DNA of 34,416 nucleotides from a virus. Positions 3,685 to 29,841 of this stretch are shown piece after piece. Where the stretch lies: IMG/VR virus record IMGVR_UViG_3300034190_000562, positions 1-34,416 of that record, one strand, 5' to 3'. The position numbers were made by a program, and so were the translations under genes. Position 1 is the first letter of the stretch; the number at the start of each line of letters is the position of its first letter. Below the pieces are notes generated by a model. It saw only the letters and a list, made by a program, of their open reading frames with translations. It made no database searches and was not told the DNA's origin.

Positions 3685-5735
3685 TGGCTACTACACAGTA
3701 CGGACAGGTTGTTGACCCTGATAAGTTGACTCAGGTACGTGGTTTGTTTGATTCGGAGCCTACCACTGCTGACGTTACCCCTCCACGCCCACAACTAGAT
3801 GCTAACCAAAAAGCAACCAACTCTCAGGTAGGAGGTGTAGGTTTAACAAGCGGAAGAGTTACCGACGAAAATCTATTAGCTGAGTTGAACAAGTCTTTTG
3901 CAACACAGATTAAAGGCGGTCGTCAGCAGATACTAAGTAAAGTTGATAAGCCAGAATCAGACAAACCTTCGTGGGCAGACTGGGTAGCGCCTTCTCTGAG
4001 CATCAGTTCTTCCTTAGCGGTAGGTATTCCCGCTGCTAGGGCAGGTGCAGTTGCAGGCGCTCCTTTCATCCCTCCGTATGGGTCTGCTATAGGTGCTACG
4101 GCGTTTGGTCTGGCGGCTACACTGCCTTTAGTGTTTGGTAGCGAGTATGCGGGAAACGCTGTTGAGGACTTAGTAGAAGGTCGTGAGTTCAACCCTGACA
4201 GAGCTTTTCAGGAAGCAATGGATGCAGCACAAACCGATGCTATTATTCAGATAGCGTTACCCGTTATAGGTACAGGCGCTAAGACAGTATACACTGGCGG
4301 TAAGAAACTTCTGACAGGTAAGGCAGGTTTAACGGACGATGCTATTGAGGAAGTAGTCGATTTTCAGGCCAGATTGAAGGAGTATGACCCTGATTTAACA
4401 TTGACTCCTGCGGCAGCTAGTCGAGGTAAGAAAACCTACGCTACACAGATTGCCCGTGTTTCTCAGTTGTCTAAAAGGACTGTAGAGCGTTTGCTCACTG
4501 GTTACGACAAGTATATGGGCGCGCAGTTAAACGAGGTTATAACTAAGTTTAAAGGTGCTACGCCTTTTGAACAAGGGGAAGCGTTACAGACTTTTATACA
4601 ACAGTCAAAAATGGCTATTGACGACATTGTTGACCCTATATACAAGAATATAGACAAACTGGGTAAGGGTGTTATTGTTGACCCTGCACAGGCGGGTATG
4701 GACTTAGCCAAACAGTTCAAGAAAAAGCACAGAGGTAAGTCAGTTACCGACCCTGAGACTGGAAGAACTACTGTTAGGAGTGCATACCCTACAGAAGCTA
4801 CGGCTTCAGCAGTTGCACGTTTACGTAACTTACCTTCTGACTTAAACTTCTATGAAGCACATAAAAGATTGTCTGAAGCTAAGAAACGCCTGTACAACGC
4901 TAACAAGTCTACTACTAAGGATAGTGACCTTGTAGAGGTGTTGGGTGCTGAAGTTGATATGTACGCGAAGGTAATGAAAGAAGCGTCTGATACTTTAAGT
5001 CCTGCATTACGTAAAGAGTACGAAGAGGTTACAAACTTCTACAGCAAGTCCAGAGATGTTGTAACAGCTTCTTTCCTTGATAAGGCTGTTAAGGTACTCG
5101 ACCCGTCACAGATAGGCGCTATGCTTACTAAGGACGGTTTAGAAGTGCCAGTAAGTCAGATAAAAAACCTTAAAAAACTTGCTGCTGAGTTAAAATCTAA
5201 ATTACCTAAAGGTTCGACTGTAAAAGGTTTAGATGATGACCCTCTGTCCGGTATAAGGAAAGGCTATCTTGAGCAGATGTTTAAACTAGGAGGGGAAGGA
5301 GGACAAAGCAGTCTAGCTAAGTTCCAGAAAAAACTACAGGAACCTAAGTTTAAAGCTACGTTTGACGCTTTGTTTGAAGGAACTCCCGTCGCTAAGAACA
5401 TGGATAGAATGCTTAAAGATTTAGACATCTTAGAGAACATCAATAAAGCAGGAGGAGGTATGCAGTTATCCGTGGCGGGTGCTGAGTACGGTGTAGCTAA
5501 AGGTACTAATCCTAATATCTTGGCAAGCCTACGAGACTTAATTCCTTCGTTTATGGCAAAGAGGGCGATTAAGCAAAAGAATGTAGACAAGCTGATTAAC
5601 ATGATTAAAGCAGCAACGGAAGCTGAAAGAAGAGGTGTTAAACTGTCGCCTAGCTATGCTATGGAACTAAATAACCTACTAGGTGTTATTAAGGTAGGTC
5701 AGGGTGTAGGAGCGGCTTCAGGCACTATGGACTAA
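3684..5735 (+). CDS. Putative internal virion protein, large subunit with membrane-inserting segment
   Basis: The protein has 683 aa with a GTG start overlapping the previous stop (TAGTG). Residues about 101-157 form a long Ala/Gly-rich hydrophobic block (SLSISSSLAVG...AGAVAGAPFIPP...AFGLAATLPLVFG) that could cross a membrane as one or two hairpins. The rest is charged and helical, with Lys-rich coiled-coil-like stretches around 380-520. It is the largest and last gene of the late operon, just before a transcription terminator, the usual place for a T7 gp16-type ejection protein. No lytic transglycosylase motif is visible, unlike T7 gp16, so wall digestion would have to come from another protein. 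The function is inferred. Confidence 0.5.
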   Translation: MATTQYGQVVDPDKLTQVRGLFDSEPTTADVTPPRPQLDANQKATNSQVGGVGLTSGRVTDENLLAELNKSFATQIKGGRQQILSKVDKPESDKPSWADWVAPSLSISSSLAVGIPAARAGAVAGAPFIPPYGSAIGATAFGLAATLPLVFGSEYAGNAVEDLVEGREFNPDRAFQEAMDAAQTDAIIQIALPVIGTGAKTVYTGGKKLLTGKAGLTDDAIEEVVDFQARLKEYDPDLTLTPAAASRGKKTYATQIARVSQLSKRTVERLLTGYDKYMGAQLNEVITKFKGATPFEQGEALQTFIQQSKMAIDDIVDPIYKNIDKLGKGVIVDPAQAGMDLAKQFKKKHRGKSVTDPETGRTTVRSAYPTEATASAVARLRNLPSDLNFYEAHKRLSEAKKRLYNANKSTTKDSDLVEVLGAEVDMYAKVMKEASDTLSPALRKEYEEVTNFYSKSRDVVTASFLDKAVKVLDPSQIGAMLTKDGLEVPVSQIKNLKKLAAELKSKLPKGSTVKGLDDDPLSGIRKGYLEQMFKLGGEGGQSSLAKFQKKLQEPKFKATFDALFEGTPVAKNMDRMLKDLDILENINKAGGGMQLSVAGAEYGVAKGTNPNILASLRDLIPSFMAKRAIKQKNVDKLINMIKAATEAERRGVKLSPSYAMELNNLLGVIKVGQGVGAASGTMD

Positions 5736-5747
5736 AACAGTAGACGT

Positions 5748-5772
5748 AAAAAAGGGGGTCGCAATGACCCCC
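5748..5772 (-). terminator. Rho-independent terminator between convergent operons
   Basis: A perfect 7-bp stem, GGGGGTC (5754-5760) with GACCCCC (5766-5772), encloses a 5-nt loop. On the minus strand it is followed by six U residues (complement of A 5748-5753), a textbook intrinsic terminator for the leftward operon ending with the reductase at 5826. On the plus strand the downstream U-tract is poor, so rightward termination would be weaker. The rest of the 90-bp gap (5736-5825) shows nothing else. Confidence 0.85.
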
Positions 5773-5825
5773 AAGTTTACATTTAGTTGAGTTTAGGTAG
5801 TTTAGCGCCTTATATTGGCACTTAT

Positions 5826-7706
5826 CTAAACTATTTCACAAGCACCTCCGGTACACGCTAGTTCCTGTGAGCCGGTGGTGTTATCTTCCTGCTCAAAGTA
5901 TTGCAGGTCATTCCAGTTAATATCTTTAGGCATTGATGCTAGTAGTTTATCATATTCCTCAGCACTGATGTCCTCATAAGGAGCTTGTTGATACGTATGT
6001 TCACTTACTGGCAACAAACTAATACCACTACACAAGTCAAAGTTATCCCATATCCACTGAGCTACCTGAAGGAACTCGCTGTCAGTGTAGTATACTGTGA
6101 TACTTGGCTTATGCTCACACCAACTATTCTGGTACATCTTCCAAAGTTCTAGCTGATGCATTGCACCTACGTCACTGACTGTCACACTGGTCGCCGGTGC
6201 CTTGACAGGGAAACTAAACACTGACGAAGACTCAGACATCACATCGTCCTCTACAGGGAACCCTGCTGTCTTCATAAAGACTGCTAAGGGGTCTTTCTTG
6301 TCCGAACGTACACGTCTAATGTAATGCTTAGAGAAGCGAGGATGGATGCCACTAGCACTATCGACAAGCTGAGAAACAGTACCACTCGGCTTAACAGCAG
6401 TAACGGCAGTAGACTGATTGATACCAAGCTTCTTTGCCCACTTCTTATTCGTTGCAATAGCGACATCTCGTACAGCCTCCAACACTACTTCACAATGCGG
6501 TGAGTTAGGTGTGCTTAACAGTTTGTTGTCCATGATACCTGTCATGCTTACGCCTAGCAACGCCTCTTCCTCTGTGTTCTTCTTCCAGATGTTACGTAAG
6601 TATCTGAAGTCAGTCAAGGTAGCCTGTAGTGTGCCAATGATGGCTGCTACTTCCGCCTTAGCTTTCAACGTCTCTTCCGTGTCATCCTCTCGTACCACTA
6701 TCTCTGACAAGTTGCAGAACTGATTGCTCCGTAGGATAATCTCTGAGCAAGGGTTAGTACCGAAGTCCTGATTAGGGTCACGACGACCATTCCTAGCTGC
6801 AATCTTCTGTGCTGCTACACGACTAAACAAACCACGTTCACCTGACTTAGACTCATATAGTGTCTGCATCTCATTAAGGAAAGCCTCGAAGTCTGGCTTC
6901 TCTGTGTACGCTACGCTGTTGTTAGCCAGTCTACGGTGTCCGTCGTTCTCCCACCATGCACCTGACTTAGCCTTAGCCATCCGTCCGTCTGACAAGTTGG
7001 AGAGGCTGATTAGTGCTGAGCGTCTAACGCCACCTACGACTACAATGTCAGCTATCTTACAAACTACATCGTGACACTCAATGGATGTCAGCTTGCGTCC
7101 TGCCGCGTTACGGAACACAGCAACACAGAAGTGAAACAACTCGTCCAAAGGAGCAGAGCCTGACGCTCGACCACCAAATGTCTCTAGTCTTGCACCTGCG
7201 GGTCGTACACCTGACATATCCCACTTAGGTATCTTACCTGCGTACAGCATAGCGATAAGCTCACGGAACGCTGATGCCCAACCCACCTTACTATCACCCA
7301 CCACAATTGTTGTGTCTGACTTGTGGAATGTCTCTGCGACTACTGGTAGCTTGGTAATGAAGTTACGTTCAACACTGAACCCTACACCTGTACCGCACAT
7401 AAGCACGTACATAAGCTCATCAAAGCTACGTGGTGAGTCAATGGCTAGGTAACTACAGTTAAAGCCTGCTACGTTATCCTTATCTAGTGCCACACCGGCA
7501 GTCATAAGACAGCGCATTGACGGCATGACTTCTAGGTTCAGGATAGAGTTGTACAGTTTCTTGGCCACCTTGCTGTCAATCTGTCCACGTTCTGTCCAAA
7601 AATCGACATATCGTTGTACTGTCTCCTCCCATGTCTCACGACGGCCTTCTTCCTTCATCCATCGTGCGTAACGTGACTTGTGTATAAACTGTTGGTACTT
7701 ATCCAT
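5826..7706 (-). CDS. nrdJ: Class II adenosylcobalamin-dependent ribonucleoside-triphosphate reductase
   Basis: The 626-aa enzyme reduces ribonucleotides to deoxyribonucleotides using a radical made from adenosylcobalamin. With the start at 7706, the conserved residues are Cys84 (GFNCSYL), Cys320 and Glu322 (NPCSEI), Cys331 (QFCNLSE), and the C-terminal redox pair Cys618/Cys623 (CTGGAC). The 11-residue spacing between Cys320 and Cys331 and the C-x4-C tail match the monomeric Lactobacillus-type RTPR, although the protein is shorter than that enzyme (about 740 aa). The frame is open six codons further upstream, but the ATG at 7706 is preferred: it overlaps the previous stop (TAATG) and has GGAG seven bases upstream. 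It is the last gene of the leftward operon. It implies that the host makes or imports cobalamin. Confidence 0.95.
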   Translation of the reverse strand: MDKYQQFIHKSRYARWMKEEGRRETWEETVQRYVDFWTERGQIDSKVAKKLYNSILNLEVMPSMRCLMTAGVALDKDNVAGFNCSYLAIDSPRSFDELMYVLMCGTGVGFSVERNFITKLPVVAETFHKSDTTIVVGDSKVGWASAFRELIAMLYAGKIPKWDMSGVRPAGARLETFGGRASGSAPLDELFHFCVAVFRNAAGRKLTSIECHDVVCKIADIVVVGGVRRSALISLSNLSDGRMAKAKSGAWWENDGHRRLANNSVAYTEKPDFEAFLNEMQTLYESKSGERGLFSRVAAQKIAARNGRRDPNQDFGTNPCSEIILRSNQFCNLSEIVVREDDTEETLKAKAEVAAIIGTLQATLTDFRYLRNIWKKNTEEEALLGVSMTGIMDNKLLSTPNSPHCEVVLEAVRDVAIATNKKWAKKLGINQSTAVTAVKPSGTVSQLVDSASGIHPRFSKHYIRRVRSDKKDPLAVFMKTAGFPVEDDVMSESSSVFSFPVKAPATSVTVSDVGAMHQLELWKMYQNSWCEHKPSITVYYTDSEFLQVAQWIWDNFDLCSGISLLPVSEHTYQQAPYEDISAEEYDKLLASMPKDINWNDLQYFEQEDNTTGSQELACTGGACEIV

Positions 7707-24219: not shown

Positions 24220-24390
24220 ATGAAAGGTGTTAAGCATTATAAAAAGGATGGCACTGAGCATAAAGGTAATACACATAAGATGCCTGACGGTAGTTTACAC
24301 AGCAACAAGTCTCACACTAAGACAAGCCAGAAGCTGTTTCACTTTAAAGACTTATCGGCTAAGGCTAAAGTTAAGGCTAAAGGTAAATAA
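24220..24390 (+). CDS. 56-aa conserved phage protein, Lys/His-rich
   Basis: The 56-aa product begins MKGVKHYKKDGTEHKGNTHK and continues MPDGSLHSNKSHTKTSQKLF, HFKDL, ending in a Lys/Ala tail. The 'KHY-KDG--KG-THKMPDGS-H-GK-HT-SSK--HFKDL' pattern recurs as a small protein in many phages beside head genes. No function is established. It is the last gene before the second late promoter, so it closes the first late transcription segment. Confidence 0.75.
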   Translation: MKGVKHYKKDGTEHKGNTHKMPDGSLHSNKSHTKTSQKLFHFKDLSAKAKVKAKGK

Positions 24391-24402
24391 GTAAAATAAA
24401 GC

Positions 24403-24444
24403 TTGACTTTTGATTAAAAGTATGTTATAATAATACTATAGTAT
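24403..24444 (+). promoter_or_regulatory. Sigma70 promoter with start-site palindrome, scaffold/capsid operon
   Basis: TTGACT (24403-24408), a 17-bp spacer and TATAAT (24426-24431) match the consensus at 11 of 12 positions, with extended -10. The palindrome ATACTATAGTAT (24433-24444) lies at exactly the same distance as at 19.36 kb. The two promoters look like diverged copies (54 of 60 bases identical). It boosts expression of scaffold and capsid. Confidence 0.87.
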
Positions 24445-27225: not shown

Positions 27226-28209
27226 ATGTATGGTTTAGGTGTAAACAGACTAGGCGCTACAAGCGCACGCGGAGGTAGAGTCCCTGAGTCCCTTTTCGCT
27301 TCCGGTGAAGAGGGTGCTTGGTATGACCCTTCCGACCTTTCAACCATGTTTCAAAACAGTGACGGTACTGGTGCGCCTGCTGTAGACTCTCCTGTAGGTT
27401 ATATTGCAGATAAGTCAGGCAACGGCAACCACGCTATTCAAGCTACTTCCTCTAAACGTCCAACTTTAAAACAAAACGGCGCTTTATACTATTTAGAGTT
27501 TGAAGGAGCGCAAGGTCTAGCCGCAAGTGCTATTGACTTTACAGGCACTGACGAGATGACTGTAAGCGCCGGCATAACAAAGGACACCTTAGATACTGCT
27601 GTAATTGCAGAGCTTTCTGCTAATGTAACAGGCAACGCAGGCTCTTTTAGACTTGCTGCTATTAGTACAGCGAGTGGCTTGTATCGTTTTCAATCTCGCG
27701 GAGACGGTACTGCTATAGCTGCTAATGCTTCGCCTTTTGGTGTAGGCACTCACGTCTTGACAGGTATAGGCGACATCAGCGGCCCTGAATGTACAGTCAG
27801 AGTTGACGGAACTGAAGAAGCGTCCGTCACAACCACGCAGGGCGCAGGTAACTACGGCGATAAAACCCTAAACATCGGCGCTCGTTCTAACGCAACTAGC
27901 TTGTTTTTAGATGGACGTATTTACGGCCTTATTGTCCGTGGTGCTACTTGTACTGCACCTGAGCTTGCAGACCTTGAATCATACATGACTGCTAGGCTAA
28001 CTGCATTAGAGGGTGGAGATTCGGACTCAGGGGACTCAGGTACATCAGTACCACCGTCACCACCGTCACCGTCACCAACACCTGCTAATAATCTTACATT
28101 ATATAGTTCTGATGGTGTACCGTGGGTTGACTCTAACGACGTTATAGTGACAGACTCAAGCGCAGGTCTTTCTGCGGCTGATATATCAACCAAACTATCC
28201 TCTGTATAG
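27226..28209 (+). CDS. Concanavalin/LamG-like lectin protein with Pro-rich linker and C-terminal tag
   Basis: The 327-aa protein has residues about 30-260 resembling a LamG/concanavalin-A-like jelly roll: AWYDPSDLSTMF, YIADKSGNGNHAIQA (62-68 DKSGNGN, the common start of such domains in phages), and strands ending DGRIYGLIVRG. A 16-residue Pro/Ser linker (about 274-289) leads to a C-terminal region of about 38 residues ending SAADISTKLSSV, which resembles the end of the subtilase encoded next. It probably binds glycans on the cell or on particles while the tail end anchors it. The role is inferred; the fold is moderately sure. Confidence 0.7.
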   Translation: MYGLGVNRLGATSARGGRVPESLFASGEEGAWYDPSDLSTMFQNSDGTGAPAVDSPVGYIADKSGNGNHAIQATSSKRPTLKQNGALYYLEFEGAQGLAASAIDFTGTDEMTVSAGITKDTLDTAVIAELSANVTGNAGSFRLAAISTASGLYRFQSRGDGTAIAANASPFGVGTHVLTGIGDISGPECTVRVDGTEEASVTTTQGAGNYGDKTLNIGARSNATSLFLDGRIYGLIVRGATCTAPELADLESYMTARLTALEGGDSDSGDSGTSVPPSPPSPSPTPANNLTLYSSDGVPWVDSNDVIVTDSSAGLSAADISTKLSSV

Positions 28210-28230
28210 TAATTAAGGAATAAAATTAAA

Positions 28231-29826
28231 ATGAAAAATTATTACATTAATATCGTTGAGGGTACTAATCAAGAAGATTTGTATCCTTTGGTATCTAGCG
28301 TAGTCAACGAATATTCCTCCTACCCTACTTTCTTTCTTGCGGAATGTACAGACGAGCAAGTGCTTGAGTTAAGCAACCGTTCTGAAGTTCGTCTGATTGA
28401 AAGTTTGGAAGAGATACAAGCAGGAGAAGACGACGACGCTACCAAAACTATGACTCTGGGACGTACTTCAAAATCTCACGCCTTGTCTACTTTTGTTGGT
28501 GTAGGAAATTGGGGTCTAATTCGACACACTAGCGATGCAAACCCTTTTGCCGCTGAAGATGTTGCCTACAATAAAACATACACTTACAACTATGACGGCA
28601 CAGGTGTTGATTTTGTAGCTAATCTAGCGGGTATGGTTGATGTCAACAATGCTGAATACAAAACAAACGGTGTAAGTAGAATCCAACAGTTTCAGTGGAA
28701 TACGCTTACTGGTATGGGCAACTTGGGAACAACAAACTACGCAACCGGCGCACAGAGTAATCACGGTAAAGCCGTTCTTGCTGTAGCTTGTTCAAACTCT
28801 TGTGGGTGGGCCACTGGTTCTAATATTTACATACTCCCAAGAAACCAAATTTCTAGTTCTGTAGACTACTACGAGGCAATTCAGAAATTCCACGAACAAA
28901 AAGGTAATTCAAGGCCGACCATAATGGTGGCTTCTTACAGTTCAGCAGGTTCAGCCGGTGGTGGCTTCGTAAGAGACATTACCTTTAGGGGTACTACAAA
29001 TGCGCAGCCTCATGGCTTACACCCTAAAAAACGTGCGAGCCTAAACGCAGCAATGTCAGTCGGAATGACGGTTCAGTATAAATACGGGTATGCAGAAGCA
29101 GCTAATGAAAAGGGCGCGATTGCTACGGCTGTACAAGCAATGACTGATGCAGGTGTCATAGCAGTTAATAGTGCAGGCAACTACAATCAAAAATGTGACC
29201 ATCCCGGCGGTTCTGACTGGAATAACAGCTACGTCAACGAGAACAACAACGTTCGCTACTATTACAATAGAGGGGCGCAGGAGTGGTCAAATGACTCAAT
29301 TGTGGTTGCCAACCTAACAAGTGATTTTGACACTTTTGGAAACAACCTCGAAGAGTTATCTTACTCCTCTAACAGAGGGCCGAGATGTGACACAGCCGCT
29401 GCCGGTATTGTAAAACTAACAGCGGGATTAGTCTCTTCTGGTACATATACTACAAGCGGGACTTCTTTTTCTGCTCCGAATGTTGCAGGCATGGCGGCTT
29501 TAGTTCTTGAAAAGTACCCTACTACTACTCCTTATCAGATGCGTAGGTTCTTTAGAGAAACAGCAGTATCCTCAGCAAACTTATATATGGGAAAGACAAC
29601 CTTAACGACAGACCTTGGTGACCACGGTGACCCTGAATATTTCAACGATGCACTAGCTCCGTGTGGGTTCTCTGGAAATATTGCTTATCTTGACCCTACG
29701 TTACCTGACGACCCTACTGCCTTGTTCCCTACATCAGGAAGCTACACTTACCCTGCTGAAGTAACAGAAAGTCAAGGTATTAACTTTACTACTGCGCAGA
29801 TTAATACTAAGTTAGCAAGTATTTAA
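28231..29826 (+). CDS. Divergent subtilisin-like (S8) protein, putative virion protein
   Basis: The 531-aa protein has an N-terminal region of about 65 residues resembling a small alpha/beta prodomain, then the subtilase core. Catalytic His178 (SNHGK), oxyanion Asn317 (NSAGNYN) and catalytic Ser412 (SGTSFSAPNVAG) are clear. The usual Asp-Ser-Gly after GTGVDFVA is replaced by Asn-Leu-Ala-Gly (131-134), so the catalytic Asp is missing or shifted (Asp137). The C-terminus ends TTAQINTKLASI, like the lectin protein before it. There is no signal peptide. AAGGA precedes the ATG. It could be a virion protease, or a pseudo-enzyme used for binding. Confidence 0.78.
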   Translation: MKNYYINIVEGTNQEDLYPLVSSVVNEYSSYPTFFLAECTDEQVLELSNRSEVRLIESLEEIQAGEDDDATKTMTLGRTSKSHALSTFVGVGNWGLIRHTSDANPFAAEDVAYNKTYTYNYDGTGVDFVANLAGMVDVNNAEYKTNGVSRIQQFQWNTLTGMGNLGTTNYATGAQSNHGKAVLAVACSNSCGWATGSNIYILPRNQISSSVDYYEAIQKFHEQKGNSRPTIMVASYSSAGSAGGGFVRDITFRGTTNAQPHGLHPKKRASLNAAMSVGMTVQYKYGYAEAANEKGAIATAVQAMTDAGVIAVNSAGNYNQKCDHPGGSDWNNSYVNENNNVRYYYNRGAQEWSNDSIVVANLTSDFDTFGNNLEELSYSSNRGPRCDTAAAGIVKLTAGLVSSGTYTTSGTSFSAPNVAGMAALVLEKYPTTTPYQMRRFFRETAVSSANLYMGKTTLTTDLGDHGDPEYFNDALAPCGFSGNIAYLDPTLPDDPTALFPTSGSYTYPAEVTESQGINFTTAQINTKLASI

Positions 29827-29841
29827 TATAGGAGTTACTTT

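Follow-up and report, generated by a model that had tools for sequence, protein, structure and literature searches.

A C-terminal tag shared by a phage subtilase-fold protein and its unrelated upstream neighbours

Introduction

Short conserved N-terminal peptides have been proposed to mount a second receptor-binding protein on the first in Klebsiella phages, and such peptides are found on both receptor-binding proteins of SP6/K1-5-like phages (PMC6872550). In these anchor-branch systems (Klebsiella KP32/KP34-type, K1-5 and SP6) an exchangeable virion protein is believed to be held on another protein, or on a common adaptor, by a short conserved peptide. An S8 peptidase gene cluster (T4-GC518) has been described in the cyanomyoviruses P-HM1 and P-HM2 (PMC3037559).

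Here we describe a locus in a complete virus record from IMG/VR, 34,416 bases long (the window, i.e. the whole stretch of DNA analysed), in which a lectin-like protein and the subtilase encoded directly downstream end in similar tails. The arrangement recalls the anchor-branch systems in its short conserved peptide. However, the anchor-branch peptides are N-terminal and mount depolymerases, whereas here the tag is C-terminal, is carried by both proteins and has a subtilase-fold protein as its constant partner. Owing to the opposite chain end and this constant partner, we do not file the present pair with the anchor-branch systems. The conserved N-terminal peptide of those systems was not encountered, the shared tag being C-terminal, and no T4gp10-like docking domain was among the Pfam matches of the window lectin (E up to 1) or of the scanned partners (E up to 0.1). 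The cyanomyovirus S8 peptidases (PHROG 9158) resemble the window subtilase in fold, and relatives from the present searches matched PHROG 9158, often with tail-fibre or baseplate genes as neighbours. They differ in that both the subtilase and its upstream neighbour lack the tail in the myovirus loci examined. T4-GC518 is a candidate member of this family. A limited literature search covering open-licence papers found no published description of the tag.

Results and Discussion

Gene order and the lectin-like protein

The features of the locus are listed in Table 1. In the nearest relatives the 84-aa gene directly follows the lectin gene; judging from this gene order, the present phage seems to have gained the linker, tag and subtilase. 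Upstream of the locus, about 60 bases (24378-24436) share 90% identity with Pseudoalteromonas phage vB_PtuP_Slicky01, in which no feature is annotated at that place.

Table 1. Features of the window locus and tagged upstream partners in related loci. Locations are positions in the window unless a locus is named.
Feature	Location	Strand	Basis or remark
Capsid protein	25883		before the 99-aa protein
99-aa protein	26923		between capsid and lectin-like genes
Lectin-like protein ORF, 327 aa	27226-28209	+	ORF translation
Lectin-like family core, residues 1-257	27226..27996	+	homologues end about there; start MYGLGVNRLG, start motif shared
LamG/ConA-like domain, residues 94-237	about 27505-27936	+	Pfam PF13385, E=1.2e-6
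Gly/Asp/Ser- and Pro-rich linker	27997..28083	+	ORF translation; absent from homologues
Lectin C-terminal tag, residues 287-327	28084..28206	+	leave-group-out partner profile (residues 287-324); alignment
Subtilase (peptidase S8-like) ORF, 531 aa	28231-29826	+	PF00082, E=2.3e-17; model matches subtilisins and proteinase K
Pro-domain-like N-terminal region, residues 1-60	28231..28410	+	confident model segment, pLDDT about 90
Subtilase C-terminal tail, residues 511-531	29761..29823	+	conserved in tagged-clade subtilases; model; partner-tag profile
Stretch present here, absent from nearest relatives (approximate)	27997..29841	+	gene order in L004, L005, L010, L021, L084
84-aa protein	29842		after subtilase
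Holin-like protein	30264		after 84-aa protein
Partner: LamG	window		
Partner: GH10 xylanase with Ig-like domains	L227		
Partner: Mu gp48 baseplate protein	L229		
Partner: unclassified	L231/L235		
Partner: unclassified, second family	L233/L239-L241/L247		
Partner: T7-fibre N-terminus	L243		
Partner: cadherin repeats	L246/L249		
Partner: 58/59-aa protein, almost only tag	L002/L003		
Partner: tail collar	L263		
Separate 58/59-aa near-tag-only ORF	L002:8929-9108, L003:9819-9995		

The lectin-like protein falls within the LamG/ConA-like family (PF13385, 29.2 bits against a curated cut-off of 27.6), and this domain predicts a protein of sugar-binding type. Relatives that are 50-73% identical over residues 1-257 terminate at ..AYMAAKTGVTL or nearby. 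In the window the core is instead followed by a linker, of which SVPPSPPSPSPTPANN is the Pro-rich part that the initial annotation had placed ahead of the tail, and then by the tag, the ORF ending in VTDSSAGLSAADISTKLSSV (from 28147). At about 41 residues the module is longer than first annotated, and its last 18 or so residues alone are common to the subtilase. Of the lectin homologues, 59 had a closed end followed by 600 nt or more of sequence; two of these are the window sequence itself (the window and L162). Both the tag and a nearby subtilase were absent from all 57 others within the stretch covered for each, leaving the window sequence as the sole homologue with the extension, and there the subtilase is present too. 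The outcome that would have refuted the initial annotation, a tail native to each of the unrelated families, was thus not observed: lectins of this family do not normally carry it, although subtilases of this clade do.

A start of the form M[YFL]x[LI]G[VI] is common to the lectin family (window 27226-27255) and to the cadherin partners of Table 1 (L246:3995; L249:3932), and in the loci viewed the gene ahead of them encodes a protein of 90 or 99 aa. The 90-aa one has a match in a PHROG with the name tail fiber protein. Judged on sequence, the common start is possibly an N-terminal anchor.

Similarity of the two tails

Within the window the resemblance of the two tails is slight. Over the last 14 codons 19/42 nt are identical, in line with the low DNA similarity already remarked upon. 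Aligned without gaps, the two ends score 33, a value reached by 6 of 3000 shuffles and equalled or exceeded by two others of the window's 1275 C-terminal pairs. Taken alone, the pair is weak and could have arisen by chance. The likeness asserted in the initial annotation was instead confirmed through a profile of the tags of other partners, which detected both window tails, that of the lectin at E=9e-4 and that of the subtilase at E=8.5e-4 (E values scaled to 24,454 ORFs, the tested group being left out). Such leave-group-out profiles recovered 14 of 16 partners at E <=4e-8, the remaining two being the window lectin and L227 (E of only 0.4). Profiles of the subtilase tails recovered fewer partners, and when built from these tails alone did not recover the window lectin (E=620), so the link between lectin and subtilase tails runs via the wider partner tag. 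Tails of a subtilase and its own partner were more similar than shuffled pairs across all 16 pairs (p=0.005); with nine representatives the difference was not clear (p=0.09).

Partner tags are under constraint at the protein level, dN being lower than dS in the compared tag pairs of relatives (dN 0.146, dS 1.05 for the small 58/59-aa ORF). They contain an eight-residue DSxGxxLx repeat followed by a short helix. The structural model of the tag is short and uncertain (mean pLDDT 70, pTM 0.39, helix at 49-56) and gave no significant match in the PDB. Neither the 59-aa protein nor the window tag matched a Pfam family (E up to 10) or a PHROG (E up to 1), and known C-terminal sorting domain families in these databases were likewise not matched.

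Unrelated partners carry the same tag

A profile-based subtilase search gave 65 viral loci, whereas bacterial and archaeal genomes, scanned by alignment, yielded no relative of the subtilase. The gene directly upstream of the subtilase ends in the same tag of about 38 residues in nine locus groups, which span several kinds of marine phage, although the partner families are unrelated (Table 1). In several partners the linker that precedes the tag is rich in Ser, Gly, Pro or Pro-Val-Asp. The proposal that the tail is a separately attached module, placed on different functional domains, therefore holds, both from the 57 untagged lectin homologues and from the nine tagged partner groups. The xylanase domain of the tagged phage protein L227:3588-5999 matches PF00331 at E=4.2e-49.

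Several partners themselves contain tail or baseplate domains (T7-fibre N-terminus, Mu gp48, tail collar), and three groups (L227, L231/L235 and the L233-type) sit in a contractile-tail baseplate operon with gp5 OB, gp25, gp6 and PAAR genes in one or another. These contexts point to tail, fibre or baseplate appendages as the location in several of the groups other than the window's. The earlier suggestion of one site such as the capsid surface, with both proteins displayed there, is not supported.

The subtilases of L001-L003 have FTKDEINTKLAT or YTRDEINTKLAT at the C-terminus. Immediately upstream lies an ORF for a 58/59-aa protein, in which the tag makes up the final 39 residues. This ORF is in frame with the fibre ORF and 9 nt away from it. 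Stop-codon readthrough joining the two was considered and rejected, since a TAA stop and a GGAG resembling a ribosome-binding site ahead of the next ATG fit separate translation better. When isolated phages were searched by tBLASTn with the 59-aa protein, all matches were at chance level.

Co-occurrence of tag and subtilase

Before dereplication, 43 subtilases had both a tail and a tagged partner, 64 had neither, eight had the tail only and none the partner only. After dereplication at 90% identity the corresponding numbers were 17, 27, 1 and 0; these counts are not phylogenetically independent, and the tail may have arisen once. The independent part of the evidence is that unrelated partners carry the same tag. 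The sole dereplicated exception is the second subtilase of L243 (L243:5189-6925).

Scans without any neighbour requirement gave the same picture. The pattern [FY]TxxEINTK[LF] matched 64 stretches in IMG/VR, and every match <=3 residues from a C-terminus belonged to the subtilase family or to the gene just upstream. Apart from L182 (see below), the remaining matches were internal, and many of them fell in the repeats of fibre-like proteins. A second IMG/VR scan, for TxxQ/EINTKLG, gave a concordant result, so that in both C-terminal copies occur almost only in these two gene slots. Two near-terminal matches outside the slots, L182 (ending YTRSEINTKLLKSF, 4 residues from the end) and L307 in the second scan, are probably due to chance. 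In bacterial and archaeal genomes a stop-anchored scan for the tag gave two matches, both unrelated. The tag is almost certainly a genuine module associated with this subtilase.

This distribution also bears on an alternative in which fibre-type genes exchange the tag as a small module for folding or oligomerisation, its likeness to the subtilase tail being irrelevant to any partnership. The eight-residue repeat ahead of a short helix would suit such a module, as would the internal copies of the helix motif in fibre-like proteins. Nevertheless, a module of this kind should not be confined at C-termini almost entirely to the neighbourhood of the subtilase, nor should the lectin family go untagged when the subtilase is absent, and we regard this explanation as very unlikely.

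A proposed model for coupling

We propose that the tail is a coupling tag between the subtilase and its upstream neighbour, an appendage-type protein that would reach its place in the virion by its own domains. The partner would present the tag as its C-terminal end, in many cases beyond a flexible linker, and the subtilase would offer a short counterpart that follows a predicted disordered stretch. The two neighbouring gene products may then pair through these ends, either directly or as mixed oligomers. The subtilase would in this way ride on whichever appendage the phage uses, which in the present phage would be the LamG protein. We place the probability of such coupling, to an appendage protein with its own place in the virion, at roughly 0.55. 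Among the observations that speak against it, the tag protein of L001-L003 is a separate ORF without a cargo domain, and the second L243 subtilase has a tail but no tagged partner beside it, although its operon does contain such a partner.

Alternatively, both tails might bind one third protein, as has been supposed for the two receptor-binding proteins of SP6/K1-5-like phages, whose shared short N-terminal peptides provide a precedent (PMC6872550). Homologous tails on two proteins would indeed be the simplest sign of a single receptor. Gene clustering across the nine groups argues otherwise, as the tag family and the subtilase were the sole families common to all. The next most common was a holin, in 4/9 groups, and no third family occurred in more than four of the nine within about 6 kb, a search of partial loci that distant or very diverged receptors would escape. 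For this reason neither a common docking site nor the 99-aa protein as common receptor is needed. Moreover, virion-type domains are already present in several partners. A shared third protein thus seems unlikely, and mutual coupling of the two tagged proteins fits better than one common site.

More tentatively, and at somewhat short of even odds, the tag could form part of a transferable two-part system in which C-terminal tags on diverse appendage proteins recruit a tagged subtilase-fold protein in podovirus-, Mu-like- and contractile-tail-type phages. If true, this would be a natural and portable way to fix an enzyme-like protein onto very different phage appendages, and the tag would be a sequence signature by which the partner of the subtilase can be picked out. 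It also raises a testable question, namely whether two proteins with homologous ends pair together.

The subtilase-fold protein

The window subtilase matches PF00082 at 63.7 bits, well above the curated cut-off of 21.8. Its AlphaFold2 model (mean pLDDT 74.8) has a subtilisin fold, with subtilisins and proteinase K as its structural matches (Foldseek against the PDB, best E=1.7e-13). The N-terminal region resembles inhibitor I9 in the order of its elements only, and one relative has an Inhibitor_I9 match that lies under the cut-off (E=0.018). At the other end the ORF closes with VTESQGINFTTAQINTKLASI, modelled as a low-confidence stretch (511-519, predicted flexible) and a short helix (521-529).

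Like subtilisin and proteinase K, the aligned subtilases (n=24) keep the His, Asn and Ser motif regions. Unlike them, they lack the Asp motif in 24/24 sequences (noted for window 28231-29826 and L256, L264, L265, L269, L272, L278 and L285), so that a complete Asp-His-Ser triad was not found; by alignment, the position is mostly hydrophobic in tagged-clade sequences, and those of the myovirus clade have Glu. The catalytic acid thus appears to have been lost in this family, and with the Asp motif missing proteolytic activity is uncertain.

The apparent loss is relevant to a further possibility, that the tail is a processing signal which the subtilase recognises on, or removes from, its partner and from itself during maturation. 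One carrier being a subtilisin-fold protein with a pro-domain-like N-terminus, and the tail lying at the extreme end of both proteins, would be in keeping with such a role. A processing role is nonetheless quite unlikely, given the doubtful activity and the conservation of the tail to its last residues; the linkers, too, would seem more like tethers than cleavage sites.

Untagged relatives

Among untagged relatives, predicted-structure matches include subtilase-like folds within proteins named baseplate wedge (S-SCSM1, 1411 aa) and proximal tail fibre (S-CAM1), and within a ConA-like lectin of an uncultured phage. Such folds inside appendage proteins would fit a covalent coupling in place of the tag-made one. 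The S-SCSM1 protein is annotated as 'baseplate wedge subunit (virion protein)', and the S-SCSM1 paper reports 45 proteins by mass spectrometry; neither there nor in the other phage papers searched could a statement on virion detection of the subtilase protein be matched to the gene.

Some operons contain two subtilase genes. In L243 (1250-3106 and 5189-6925) several genes lie between them, and many myovirus loci have a tandem pair (e.g. L256:3215-4735 and 4737-6359).
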